DNA from: Paractinoplanes abujensis
Lineage (GTDB): Bacteria; Actinomycetota; Actinomycetes; Mycobacteriales; Micromonosporaceae
Direction: 5' to 3'
Length of the DNA stretch: 64,000 bases
Assembly (NCBI RefSeq): GCF_014204895.1
Contig: NZ_JACHMF010000001.1
Coordinates: 5,332,001-5,396,000 of the forward strand
Positions 36,733-40,374 of this stretch are shown in pieces. A program made the translations under genes and the position numbers. The notes below the pieces were generated by a model. The model saw only the letters and a program-made list of their open reading frames with translations. It did no database searches and had not been told where the DNA came from. Position 1 is the stretch's first letter. The number at the start of each line of letters is the position of its first letter.

Positions 36733-39228
36733 TCAGAAGCGCGCAGCCAGGGCCCGCCTCAGGTCGTCGTCGGCGTCGAGCACCACGCGCCGCAGGATCG
36801 GGTCGAGCTCGTCGTCGGCGAGCAGCCGGGCCGCCAGCTCGCGGGTCTGCGGCTCGACGACCACTGACGGGTACGCCGCCGCGGCCGTCCGCTCGGCGCT
36901 CATGCCGTTGCGGATCCGCATCATCTCCGGCATCTCGGCGAAGTAGCGGGCCACGTACGGCCGTACGAGGTCGATCTGCTCGGTCTGCCAGAAGCCGGAG
37001 GCGGTCATCTCGACGAGCCGGTTCGACAGCGTGGCGTCCGAGATGATCGCGGCCCACGCGGCCGCCTTGGCCTCCGGGTCCGGGCGGGCGGCCCGGCAGC
37101 GGGCGGCCCACTGCTCGCCGGTCGAGCTGCGGTCCCGCGCGAACTCGGCCTCGATCACGTCGAGATCGGCCGCGCCCAGCACCGCCAGGCGATAGATGAT
37201 CAGCCAGCGCAGGTCGGCGTCGACCGGCAGGCCCTCGGGCACGTTGCGCCCGGCCAGCCAGTCGTGCAGGCGCCCGGTGTCGACGGTGGCGCCGATCAGG
37301 CCGCGCGCGGCGGCCAGCTGACGCGATCCGCCCGGCTCGGAGGCGGCGAGCAGCCGGTCGGCGGCCTGCGCGACCAGTTCCAGGGCGGCCGGGCGGGTCT
37401 GCCGGGTGGAGTAGCGGTCGACCAGGCTGCGGGTGGCCCGCAGCACGTCCTCGACGATGACCACCTCGGACTCCACCGGCAGCGCGGCCAGCACCAGCGT
37501 GACCAGCTCGGCTACCGGGCGTTCGCCGTCGACGACCGCGTCCAGCGTGGCCGCCCACAGCACGGCCCGGGCCAGCGAGTCGCCCAGCAGCGGCAACACG
37601 ACGGGAACGGCGGCATCCGACTTCTCGTCCAGCCGGATCTTCGCGTACGTAAGGTCCCCGTCGTTGAGCAGCAGCAGGTCGGCCACCGGCTCGCCGGTCA
37701 GCTCGGGCACCTCCGTACGACCGGTGGCCTGCACCTCGACCTCGATCAGCTTGCGCCGTTGCACCGTGCCGTCGGCGCGGTGGTCCCACAGGCCGATGCC
37801 GATCCGGTGCGGGCGCAGCGCCGGGTGGGCGTCGGGCGCGGTCTGGAGCACCGCCACCGACGAGTAGGCGCCCCCGGAGTCCGAGACCGTCAGCCGCAGC
37901 GTGTTGACCTGGGCCCGGCGCAGCCACACGTCGGCCCAGGCGGTGAGGTCGCGCCCGCTCGCCGCGGACAGCGCACCCAGCAGGTCGGCCAGGGTCGCGT
38001 TGCCGTACGCGTGCGCCGCGAAGTGCGCGTTCACCCCGGCCCGGAACGCTTCGTCGCCCACCCACGCCACGAGCTGCTTGAGCACGGCCGCGCCCTTGGC
38101 GTACGAGATGCCGTCGAAGTTGAGCAGCGCCTGGTCGGTGTCGCTGACCTCGGCCGGCGCCACCGGATGGGTCGAGGGGTGCTGGTCGGCCCGCAGGCCC
38201 CACGCCTTGCGCTGCATGGCGAAGGTCGTCCACGTGCCCGCGTACCGGGTCGCCTCGGACGCGATGCGCGTGCCCATGTACTCCGCGAACGACTCGTTCA
38301 GCCACAGGTCGTCCCACCAGGCCATGGTCACCAGGTCGCCGAACCACATGTGCGCCATCTCGTGGGAGATCACGTTGGCCCGGTGCTCGCGATCGCTCTC
38401 GGTGACCGCCGAACGGTGGATGAACTCGTCGCGGAACACGACCAGCCCGGGGTACTCCATCGCGCCGAAGTTGAACTCGGGGGCGAACGCCTGCTGGTAG
38501 TGGCCGAACGGATAGCGGATGTCGAAGATCTCGTGGTAGCGGTCGAGGCACTGCTTGGTGATCTCGAAGATCTCGGGCGCGTCGGCCTCGAGCGCCTCGG
38601 CCAGCGCGGCCCGGGCGTACAGGGCCAGCGGGATGCCGTCGTGCGAGTCGGTGACCTCGTGGTACGGCCCGGCGATGAGCGAGCACAGGTAGGTCGGGAT
38701 CGGCTTGGTCGGCGCGAACTCCCACCGCCCGTCGCGGCTCGACACCAGTGGCCCGTTCGCCGCGACCCGCCAGTTCGCGGGCGCGGTGACGCTGAGCCGG
38801 TAGGACGCCTTGAGGTCGGGCTGGTCGAACGCGGGCAGGATCCGGCCCGCGTTGTTGATGAACATGTGCTGGTAGAGGTAGATCGAGCCGTCGGCCGGGT
38901 CGACGTGCTTGTGCAGGCCCTCGCCGGTGTTCGAGTAGCGCATGACGGCCTCGACGGCGAGCTCGTTGGACGCGGCCAGGCCGGTCAGCTCGATCCGCCC
39001 GTCGGTGAGCACCGACTCGGGCAGCGGCGCTCCGTTCAGCGTCATCTTGGCCACGGACACGGGCTCGAACTCGAGGAACGTCGAGGAGCCGTCCCGGGCG
39101 CCGAAGCGCACCACCGTCCGCGCGCCGAAGGTGTCCCCCTCGGCGGTCAGATCGAGATCGACCTCGTACTCGTGGACATCGACGGTGGCGGCCCGGGCGG
39201 TGGCCTCGGCGCGGGTCAAACTCGGCAT
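36733..39228 (-). CDS. pepN: Aminopeptidase N (M1 family metallopeptidase)
   Basis: The 831-residue protein from ATG 39228 has the M1 layout. GAMEYPG, which binds the substrate N-terminus, precedes the zinc motif HEMAHMWFGD with H289, E290 and H293, and E312 in WLNESFAEY is the third ligand. A long C-terminal ERAP1-like helical domain follows. It removes N-terminal residues from peptides in the cytoplasm. Its promoter must lie in the 46 bp that separate it from the divergent trp leader peptide. The longer frame with an ATG at 39288 would run across that leader and is not favoured. Confidence 0.95.
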   Translation of the reverse strand: MPSLTRAEATARAATVDVHEYEVDLDLTAEGDTFGARTVVRFGARDGSSTFLEFEPVSVAKMTLNGAPLPESVLTDGRIELTGLAASNELAVEAVMRYSNTGEGLHKHVDPADGSIYLYQHMFINNAGRILPAFDQPDLKASYRLSVTAPANWRVAANGPLVSSRDGRWEFAPTKPIPTYLCSLIAGPYHEVTDSHDGIPLALYARAALAEALEADAPEIFEITKQCLDRYHEIFDIRYPFGHYQQAFAPEFNFGAMEYPGLVVFRDEFIHRSAVTESDREHRANVISHEMAHMWFGDLVTMAWWDDLWLNESFAEYMGTRIASEATRYAGTWTTFAMQRKAWGLRADQHPSTHPVAPAEVSDTDQALLNFDGISYAKGAAVLKQLVAWVGDEAFRAGVNAHFAAHAYGNATLADLLGALSAASGRDLTAWADVWLRRAQVNTLRLTVSDSGGAYSSVAVLQTAPDAHPALRPHRIGIGLWDHRADGTVQRRKLIEVEVQATGRTEVPELTGEPVADLLLLNDGDLTYAKIRLDEKSDAAVPVVLPLLGDSLARAVLWAATLDAVVDGERPVAELVTLVLAALPVESEVVIVEDVLRATRSLVDRYSTRQTRPAALELVAQAADRLLAASEPGGSRQLAAARGLIGATVDTGRLHDWLAGRNVPEGLPVDADLRWLIIYRLAVLGAADLDVIEAEFARDRSSTGEQWAARCRAARPDPEAKAAAWAAIISDATLSNRLVEMTASGFWQTEQIDLVRPYVARYFAEMPEMMRIRNGMSAERTAAAAYPSVVVEPQTRELAARLLADDELDPILRRVVLDADDDLRRALAARF

Positions 39229-39274
39229 TCGACCATCATCCGATACGCGTTTCTCCGCTGCTATCGTGGGTTCC

Positions 39275-39310
39275 ATGCGCTGTGCCAATCGTGCCTGGTG
39301 GCTGCCCTGA
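39275..39310 (+). CDS. trp leader peptide of trpS (MRCANRAWWLP)
   Basis: ATG 39275 opens an 11-codon frame that carries two adjacent Trp codons (39296-39301) just before its stop TGA (39308-39310). No other stretch nearby has such Trp density, and it sits directly in front of a terminator/antiterminator pair and a tryptophanyl-tRNA synthetase gene. This is the textbook design of a ribosome-mediated attenuation leader. A TATCGT box at 39262 could place the transcript start almost at the ATG, so the leader may be translated with little or no 5' UTR. That last point is speculative. Confidence 0.85.
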   Translation: MRCANRAWWLP

Positions 39311-39311
39311 C

Positions 39312-39367
39312 GGGCGGCTCACCCACACGCGCACTCATCGCGGCCGCCCCTTCCCGGGCGGCCTTTT
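39312..39367 (+). promoter_or_regulatory. Transcription attenuator of trpS
   Basis: GGCCGCCC (39342-39349) and GGGCGGCC (39356-39363) form an 8-bp hairpin with a 6-base loop followed by TTTT (39364-39367), an intrinsic terminator. GGGCGGC (39312-39318), immediately after the leader stop codon, is complementary to GCCGCCC (39343-39349) and can form a competing antiterminator. A ribosome stalled on the Trp codons would leave 39312-39318 mostly free; one reaching the stop codon would cover it. Low charged tRNA-Trp should therefore raise trpS transcription. Confidence 0.85.
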
Positions 39368-39411
39368 CGTGTCTCCGGGAGAGGTCGGCCTGACCCCGGA
39401 GGAGAAAGACC

Positions 39412-40374
39412 ATGACTCGTCGGCTCACCGGCTTCCAGCCCACCGGCCACCTGCACCTCGGCAACTTGATCGGCGCCATGCGACCCCTGGTGGCCGCGCA
39501 GGACAGACCCTCGATCGCGATGATCGCCGACCTGCACGCGCTCACCATGGAGCACGATCCGCAAGCCGTACGCGCGAACACCCTGACCGTCGCCACGGTG
39601 CTGCTCGCCGCGGGGGTCGATCCGCAGCGCACCCCGATCATCGCCAACTCCCAGGTGCCCGAGCACACCGAACTGCATTATCTGCTCGAGTGCGTGACCG
39701 GCTACGGCGAGGCGGCCCGCATGATCCAGTTCAAGGAGAAGTCGGCCGCCGGCGGCACTGTGCGGCTCAGCCTGCTCACCTATCCCGTGCTCATGGCGGC
39801 TGACATTCTCCTGCACGACATCGACGAGGTCCCCGTGGGTGAGGATCAAAGTCAACATCTCGAGCTGGCCCGTACGATCGCCACCCGCTTCAATGCCCGC
39901 TACGGCGCGACGTTCGTGGTGCCCGAGGGCATCCGCCCCGAAGCGGCCGCGCGGATCATGGATCTGGCCGACCCGGTCCGCAAGATGAGCAAGAGCGCAC
40001 CCTCACCGGCGGGCCGGATCGGGCTCCTCGACCCGCCCGAGACGATCCGCAAGGTCATCTCGCGGGCGGTCACCGACACCGCGGGCGTGGTCCGGCACGA
40101 CCGGGAGGGCCAGCCCGGGGTCACCAACCTGCTGGAGATCCTGCGGGCCTGCTCCGGCCGCGACCCCGGCGAGCTCACGTCCTACGGCGCGCTCAAGCGG
40201 GAGGTGACCGACGCCGTCGAGGCGGTGCTCGCGCCGATCAGGGCCCGCTACGCCGAGCTGTTGCAAGACCCTTCCCACGTACGTGAGGTGCTCGCCCGGG
40301 GCAAGGCGTTCGTGCGGCCACGGGCGGCCGAGACCGTACGGCGTACGCGGGCCGCCATCGGGCTACTGGACTAA
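39412..40374 (+). CDS. trpS: Tryptophanyl-tRNA synthetase, probably the auxiliary attenuation-controlled type
   Basis: The 320-residue class Ic synthetase has the HIGH-like HLHLGN at residues 13-18 and KMSKS at 191-195. A GGAGGAG ribosome site precedes the ATG. The N-terminus (TGFQPTGHLHLGN) differs from the housekeeping actinobacterial form, which as I recall reads TADSFHLGN. In Streptomyces coelicolor an auxiliary, indolmycin-resistant TrpRS is known to be controlled by ribosome-mediated attenuation, and the leader found here has that design. So this may be a second, antibiotic-tolerant TrpRS. Resistance cannot be read from the sequence with certainty. Its stop overlaps the convergent acetyltransferase gene by 12 bp. 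Confidence 0.93.
   Translation: MTRRLTGFQPTGHLHLGNLIGAMRPLVAAQDRPSIAMIADLHALTMEHDPQAVRANTLTVATVLLAAGVDPQRTPIIANSQVPEHTELHYLLECVTGYGEAARMIQFKEKSAAGGTVRLSLLTYPVLMAADILLHDIDEVPVGEDQSQHLELARTIATRFNARYGATFVVPEGIRPEAAARIMDLADPVRKMSKSAPSPAGRIGLLDPPETIRKVISRAVTDTAGVVRHDREGQPGVTNLLEILRACSGRDPGELTSYGALKREVTDAVEAVLAPIRARYAELLQDPSHVREVLARGKAFVRPRAAETVRRTRAAIGLLD

Follow-up and report, generated by a model that had tools for sequence, protein, structure and literature searches.

A Probable Ribosome-Mediated Transcription Attenuator with Tandem Trp Codons Upstream of an Auxiliary trpS Gene in Micromonosporaceae

The leader of the trpS gene in the analysed stretch of DNA (64 kb; hereafter the window) is very probably a classical Trp-codon, ribosome-mediated transcription attenuator of an auxiliary tryptophanyl-tRNA synthetase (TrpRS) gene. 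The anatomy and conservation of the element and the phylogeny of the enzyme were established in the window and its relatives. Because the attenuation mechanism is known in related bacteria, the window provides a well-supported new example and not a new kind of switch. It also carries an additional stem (P1), formed by the leader's 5' half and the linker that joins segments 2 and 3.

Leader Anatomy and Predicted Promoter

The features of the region are as follows.

36733-39228, minus strand: pepN, aminopeptidase N, divergent neighbour (TIGR02412, 914 bits)
39262-39267, plus strand: -10-like TATCGT, lying 13 nt 5' of the start codon of the leader
39275-39310, plus strand: leader ORF MRCANRAWWLP*, 11 codons, with Trp codons TGGTGG at 39296-39301 and stop TGA at 39308-39310
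39276-39284, plus strand: P1 5' strand, TGCGCTGTG, which takes in part of the start codon
39297-39307, plus strand: segment 1, overlapping the Trp codons, 11 pairs with 39312-39323
39312-39323, plus strand: segment 2, partner of segment 1 or of 39343-39349 (antiterminator strand 39312-39318)
39324-39333, plus strand: P1 3' strand, in the segment 2-3 linker
39342-39349, plus strand: segment 3, the terminator 5' arm, doubling as antiterminator partner
39356-39363 and 39364-39367 (TTTT), plus strand: segment 4 and T tract, intrinsic terminator
39372-39379 and 39395-39402, plus strand: Shine-Dalgarno (SD) hairpin, masking most of the trpS SD GGAGGAG (39398-39404), covarying in relatives
39412-40374, plus strand: auxiliary tryptophanyl-tRNA synthetase gene, 320 aa (TIGR00233 trpS, Pfam PF00579 and phylogeny)

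The antiterminator strand GGGCGGC (39312-39318) was perfectly complementary to 39343-39349, and GGCCGCCC at 39342-39349 was perfectly complementary to 39356-39363, followed by TTTT. A terminator scan placed an intrinsic terminator 5' of trpS, with 8 GC pairs and then TTTTCGTGTC (1 found vs. 0.1 expected). A sequence-only reading had located the leader ORF, its tandem Trp codons and stop, both pairings and the TTTT, and all of its coordinates were exact. The complementary trio that it described was likewise exact in all three segments; it had overlooked segment 1 (39297-39307), which pairs with 39312-39323, so that the four-segment design is present. The set of 1:2, 2:3 and 3:4 pairings is thus complete, with 2:3 and 3:4 mutually exclusive and 1:2 likewise. 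The minimum-energy fold of the leader was -52 kcal/mol (z = -3.2), and 1/200 shuffles was equally stable.

RNAalifold on a MAFFT alignment of the leaders, with the simple 1:2 plus 3:4 structure, gave 14 pairs, one of them with a double change; the arms vary so little that covariation was thin. Many relatives had a weak T tract, such as GTTGTC or GTTTCGCG. A T-box or another Rfam leader family was rejected: no Rfam family matched at its gathering score in the window, and 39200-39450 had sub-threshold matches only.

Of 51 leaders, 50 carried a TANNNT motif at position -13 or -12 relative to the leader start (mean 5.0 and maximum 13 in shuffles); the occurrence of the motif in 44 further leaders was not counted as evidence, since the parser demanded that motif. 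An SD-like motif at -16 to -4 of the leader start was present in 0/51 leaders. Transcription is therefore predicted from sequence to start at the leader ATG or 1-2 nt before it, making the leader ORF leaderless. A sigma-70 consensus scan of 39000-39600 found no promoter, so the -10-like TATCGT is the one element by which the promoter is proposed.

The Auxiliary trpS Gene and Its Relatives

The window TrpRS scored 287 bits against TIGR00233 (cut-off 176.75). The genome (9.33 Mb, one contig) encodes three class Ic synthetases, namely a tyrosyl enzyme, a housekeeping TrpRS and the window TrpRS. The sequence-only reading had proposed looking for a second trpS with a TADSFHLGN-type N-terminus, and the housekeeping TrpRS of the same genome has precisely that N-terminus. 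Its suggestion of a probable Micromonosporaceae genome was borne out as well, with Paractinoplanes lichenicola as the nearest named relative (95% identity). In a tree of 101 rows, the window type, other actinobacterial orthologues and a Streptomyces-like auxiliary set formed a 61-row group (support 100/99), separate from the housekeeping (100/99) and third-type (100/99) enzymes; L049, L050, L081 and 18/28 non-clade rows were left out of this tree, and long branches were flagged by the program. The label of the Streptomyces-like set (ten rows, one of them, L147, from another family) was inferred from leader peptides such as MTTRTCTQLWWAA, which resemble trpL2 of S. lividans, MMTRTCTQLWRAA, as given in the consulted part of PMC8079986. 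Sequence and phylogeny thus support the window trpS as a second TrpRS gene beside the housekeeping copy, sharing a clade with the Streptomyces-like auxiliary enzymes. The divergent pepN marks the trpS locus and is no part of the switch; it also adjoins the window-type trpS in G302 and G332.

A search of named genomes confirmed 80/97 loci, 52 of them in the actinobacterial clade that includes the window enzyme. A leader with Trp codons was present in 50 of these 52 loci, 47 with tandem Trp codons (within 260 nt) and 3 with a single one (L008, L010 and L027), in which the first Trp codon was an Arg codon (CGG or AGG) and the RNA pairings were kept. The two other clade loci were L034 of Nocardia transvalensis, the sole clear loss, and L049, whose contig was too short. 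In L034 a TAACCT-like -10 lay near the orthologous trpS in place of the leader. No leader with tandem Trp codons was found in 28 non-clade loci (Acidobacteria, Firmicutes, other phyla and one MAG labelled Acidimicrobiia). The leader starts of L027, L028 and L050 were placed by hand.

A covariance model (R1) was built from 51 leaders, the 50 named loci plus the window, and it matched in 67/67 genus genomes at E 0.01 or better. The window-type trpS occurred in 47 genus genomes, and in 47/47 the element lay 37-96 nt upstream; the leader was thus kept wherever close relatives kept this trpS, and the loss that the sequence-only reading had named as a refutation was not found. Upstream of the housekeeping trpS (66 genus genomes) the R1 element was found in 0/66. 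In G359 the protein search of the genus genomes detected no housekeeping trpS copy.

Stem P1

In the window, P1 joins 39276-39284 with 39324-39333 through 9 pairs and a single bulged base. In the minimum-free-energy fold of the window the same linker is engaged in another register, and the start codon was paired with a probability of only about one third. P1 was assessed by alignment-free permutation tests that ignored kinship, in place of RNAalifold covariation, which was uninformative. Leader nucleotides 1-12 paired with their own linker at a mean of -12.56 kcal/mol vs. -9.84 with permuted linkers (0/2000 permutations as good; kinship ignored) and -6.3 with shuffled linkers. The Arg codon at position 2 was CGC in one group of leaders and CGG in a second, and the pairing was stronger with the linker of the same group (-12.0 and -11.8) than with that of the other group (-8.3 and -7.5).

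When the test was extended to 15 nt and to 93 leaders from four classes, the own linker gave -12.27 vs. -9.30 (0/5000 permutations; kinship ignored). By class, the count of permutations per 5000 was 2 for the Streptomyces-like leaders, 1 for the non-trpS class and 18 for the third type. L012, L162 and L163 were exceptions. In Streptomyces-like and most third-type leaders P1 begins at about nt 6-9, so that start-codon capture is not general. The further-leader set comprised 48 regions, of which 44 were parsed (L093, L112, L117 and L164 were unparsed; L168 was not included), and L115 and L167 were dropped from the 93-leader P1 test and from both folding models.

Folding Models and Proposed Mechanism

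For the full-length leader at equilibrium the terminator won in every ribosome state, and 0/93 leaders switched; as equilibrium folding gives no switch, the switch would have to be kinetic, as in classical attenuation. In the paused-transcript model, the transcript ends before segment 4. With the window leader, P(2:3) in this model was 0.90 for a ribosome stalled on the last Trp codon, against 0.00 both for the free leader and for a ribosome at the stop codon; the result was stable at downstream footprint edges of 10-15 nt and dropped to 0.01 at 20. Across leaders, P(2:3) exceeded 0.3 in 92/93 when stalled, 5/93 when free and 1/93 with the ribosome at the stop. The strict switch pattern was produced by 76/93 leaders vs. 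81/465 shuffled controls (17%), and was missed by 17/93 leaders. In the model, then, a ribosome at the Trp codons is predicted to free segment 2 and one at the stop codon to cover it.

Transcription would begin at or beside the leader ATG. With scarce Trp-tRNA the ribosome would stall on the tandem Trp codons and cover segment 1, freeing segment 2, which could then pair with segment 3 before segment 4 exists, as the folding model supports; no terminator would form and trpS would be transcribed. With ample Trp-tRNA the ribosome at the stop codon would cover segment 2, and the 3:4 hairpin with its T tract would terminate transcription. If the ribosome were absent, P1, 1:2 and 3:4 would form and transcription would stop too. 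P1 would fold the leader 5' half, including the start codon itself in the window's family, onto the linker, by which an untranslated leader would shut itself off, and early arrival of a ribosome would become a condition for induction. The proposal of the sequence-only reading that the leader senses charged tRNA-Trp by attenuation gains support from anatomy, conservation and the paused-transcript folding model. Charged tRNA-Trp would suppress read-through, and therefore starvation, or a drug acting on the housekeeping TrpRS, would induce the spare enzyme.

Alternative Explanations

That a chance mini-ORF with tandem Trp codons merely precedes an ordinary terminator, e.g., that of an upstream transcript, without any regulation, is scarcely credible. 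Such mini-ORFs alone do arise (4 in the 64-kb window, 0.9 per shuffle), but the full arrangement, for which the scan required the mini-ORF, TANNNT at -12/-13 and both 2:3 and 3:4 complementarity, was found at 1 site in the window and in 0 of 60 dinucleotide shuffles. The upstream gene is divergent, and conservation in 47/47 genus genomes already refutes a chance origin. It is very improbable that the leader peptide acts in trans, like peTrpL of Sinorhizobium meliloti. The consulted portion of PMC7298713 does describe trans functions of Trp leader peptides, and the C-terminal WW-x-P is well conserved, but residues in the middle of the peptide vary freely, the conserved M-R start and WW-x-P end are the residues whose codons sit in P1 and segment 1, and the second codon varies as synonymous Arg codons, each matched by the linker.

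A leader acting mainly on translation, with a hairpin masking the trpS SD and the upstream element tuning access to it, is improbable, though less so than the two former readings. A hairpin between the terminator and trpS likely does mask the SD: spacer-SD pairing was stronger than in shuffled sequences in 51 leaders (-17.85 vs. -14.14 +- 0.45; 0/5000 permutations) and before the third-type TrpRS genes (-18.87 vs. -11.22 +- 0.71). In the Streptomyces-like set, where the analysed stretch cut the 5' arm, it was not (-13.97 vs. -13.49; 652/5000). Segments 2 and 3 stop short of the SD hairpin, so nothing ties this hairpin to translation of the leader; P(SD region paired) rose only from 0.54 to 0.65, above its own control in 37/50; and a T-tailed GC hairpin exists at the leader. 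L111 and L116 were left out of the class comparison in the SD tests, and the trpS start of L080 is probably misplaced.

SD-masking pairing was found in the third-type and non-trpS classes as well. In the window (39372-39402) the hairpin partly uses the terminator T tract, and similar pairing occurs in relatives.

Indolmycin-Related Positions of TrpRS

Ten active-site positions were compared across the TrpRS rows. The window TrpRS has Gln at the position of Bst Gln9, where change has been linked to indolmycin resistance, and His at that of His43, like all 9 housekeeping rows. At the Bst Gln9 position, the window type had Gln in 16 and Lys in 5 rows (n = 21), the housekeeping type Gln in 9/9, the other actinobacterial rows Thr in 24, Lys in 7 and Gln in 1, the Streptomyces-like rows Lys in 9 and Gln in 1, and the third type Arg in 20. 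It was the only one of the ten positions that split most auxiliary from housekeeping rows. Judged by aligned residues, the auxiliary TrpRS group is altered at position 9 and the window enzyme is not.

A reading of indolmycin resistance from sequence was not adopted, since the window carries the housekeeping residue at position 9. Of the conserved resistance wiring that the sequence-only reading had suggested, the wiring is conserved and the resistance is unsupported, the enzyme keeping both Gln9 and His43. The consulted part of PMC6804068 refers to S. griseus SGR_3809 as indolmycin-resistant.

Comparison with Known Systems

The E. coli trp leader follows the same four-segment logic as the window, and its segment 1 too carries tandem Trp codons. 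Its leader ORF has its own Shine-Dalgarno and, to our knowledge, an ORF start that is not paired into the linker, unlike that of the window. Vecchione and Sello in 2010 reportedly described ribosome-mediated attenuation of the auxiliary, indolmycin-resistant TrpRS gene of S. coelicolor (trpRS1). Like trpRS1, the window has the attenuator before an auxiliary TrpRS gene, and its enzyme falls in a clade with the Streptomyces-like set; unlike that kind, it keeps Gln at Bst Gln9, where 9/10 Streptomyces-like rows have Lys. Korolev in 2015 is said to have treated Trp attenuators in Actinobacteria.

The sequence-only reading had regarded S. coelicolor as the only comparable case, which was too narrow in view of S. 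avermitilis trpS2 (PMC1262725) and S. lividans trpL2 (PMC8079986), each as covered in the consulted part of its source. In 2005 attenuators were predicted for Corynebacterium and Streptomyces trp operons and for S. avermitilis trpS2, and, as far as the consulted text of PMC1262725 goes, they share with the window a Trp leader peptide, a complementary triple and a GC-rich terminator; the attenuator section of that paper names no Micromonosporaceae and no extra stem like P1, which the window has. In S. lividans TK24, trpL2 is a short leaderless Trp leader with two hairpins before trpS, according to the consulted sections of PMC8079986. The predicted leaderless start in the window resembles trpL2, which is reported there as leaderless, and the Streptomyces-like loci had leader peptides nearly identical to that of trpL2; trpL2, however, has a single Trp codon (MMTRTCTQLWRAA) and lacks a U-rich tract, in those same sections, while the window has tandem Trp codons and TTTT. 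A literature search combining trpS, leader peptide and Actinoplanes found only PMC8079986. Neither P1 nor the exchange of TrpRS types was met in the literature searched, which covered the relevant papers in part.

The arrangement would make expression of a spare tRNA synthetase depend directly on the level of its own product, and bacteria meeting TrpRS inhibitors could thereby induce trpS without recognizing the drug. Drug-blind induction would be relevant in a group where Actinoplanes tsinanensis produces the TrpRS inhibitor chuangxinmycin (consulted part of PMC12087186). Enzyme exchange under kept control, together with a stem that captures the leader start, may illustrate how Actinobacteria assemble and redeploy such switches.

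Other Targets and a Third TrpRS Type

The same genome had an R1 match at C1:4607408-4607508 (L085 1501-1601; E 1.9e-11) with the leader MLNARLNWWPA*, followed by the gene of an anthranilate synthase-like, chorismate-binding enzyme that scored below curated cut-offs. In the relative L111, the same type of element preceded an anthranilate synthase gene scoring above the cut-off. Other non-trpS R1 matches in the genus numbered 92 in 67 genomes, and at E 0.001 with strict filters R1 matched in 74/296 genomes of the class.

A third, distantly related TrpRS type (35-41% identity) was found in 20/67 genus genomes (L149-L168), and its closest PDB entries were TrpRS II, presumably those of Deinococcus. 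The window type (47) and the third type (20) never co-occurred, and each of the 67 genomes had one of them. The R1 element was found before 4/20 third-type genes, few matches being expected because R1 was built from window-type leaders. When the upstream regions were read directly, 18/20 had a Trp-codon leader (10 with tandem and 8 with single Trp codons), and L164 and L168 had none in the upstream region. It is possible, at slightly under an even chance, that in the genus the wiring outlasts the enzyme and forms a compound element of leaderless start, P1 self-shutoff, attenuator and SD-masking hairpin.

An in-place swap of the TrpRS types was rejected, since the pepN locus lay elsewhere in 12/12 third-type genomes checked, in 5 over 1 megabase away along the same contig and in 7 on another contig. 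At G327:C4:530318-531285 the leader was intact and the window-type trpS was split into two pieces lying in different frames, from decay or sequencing error.
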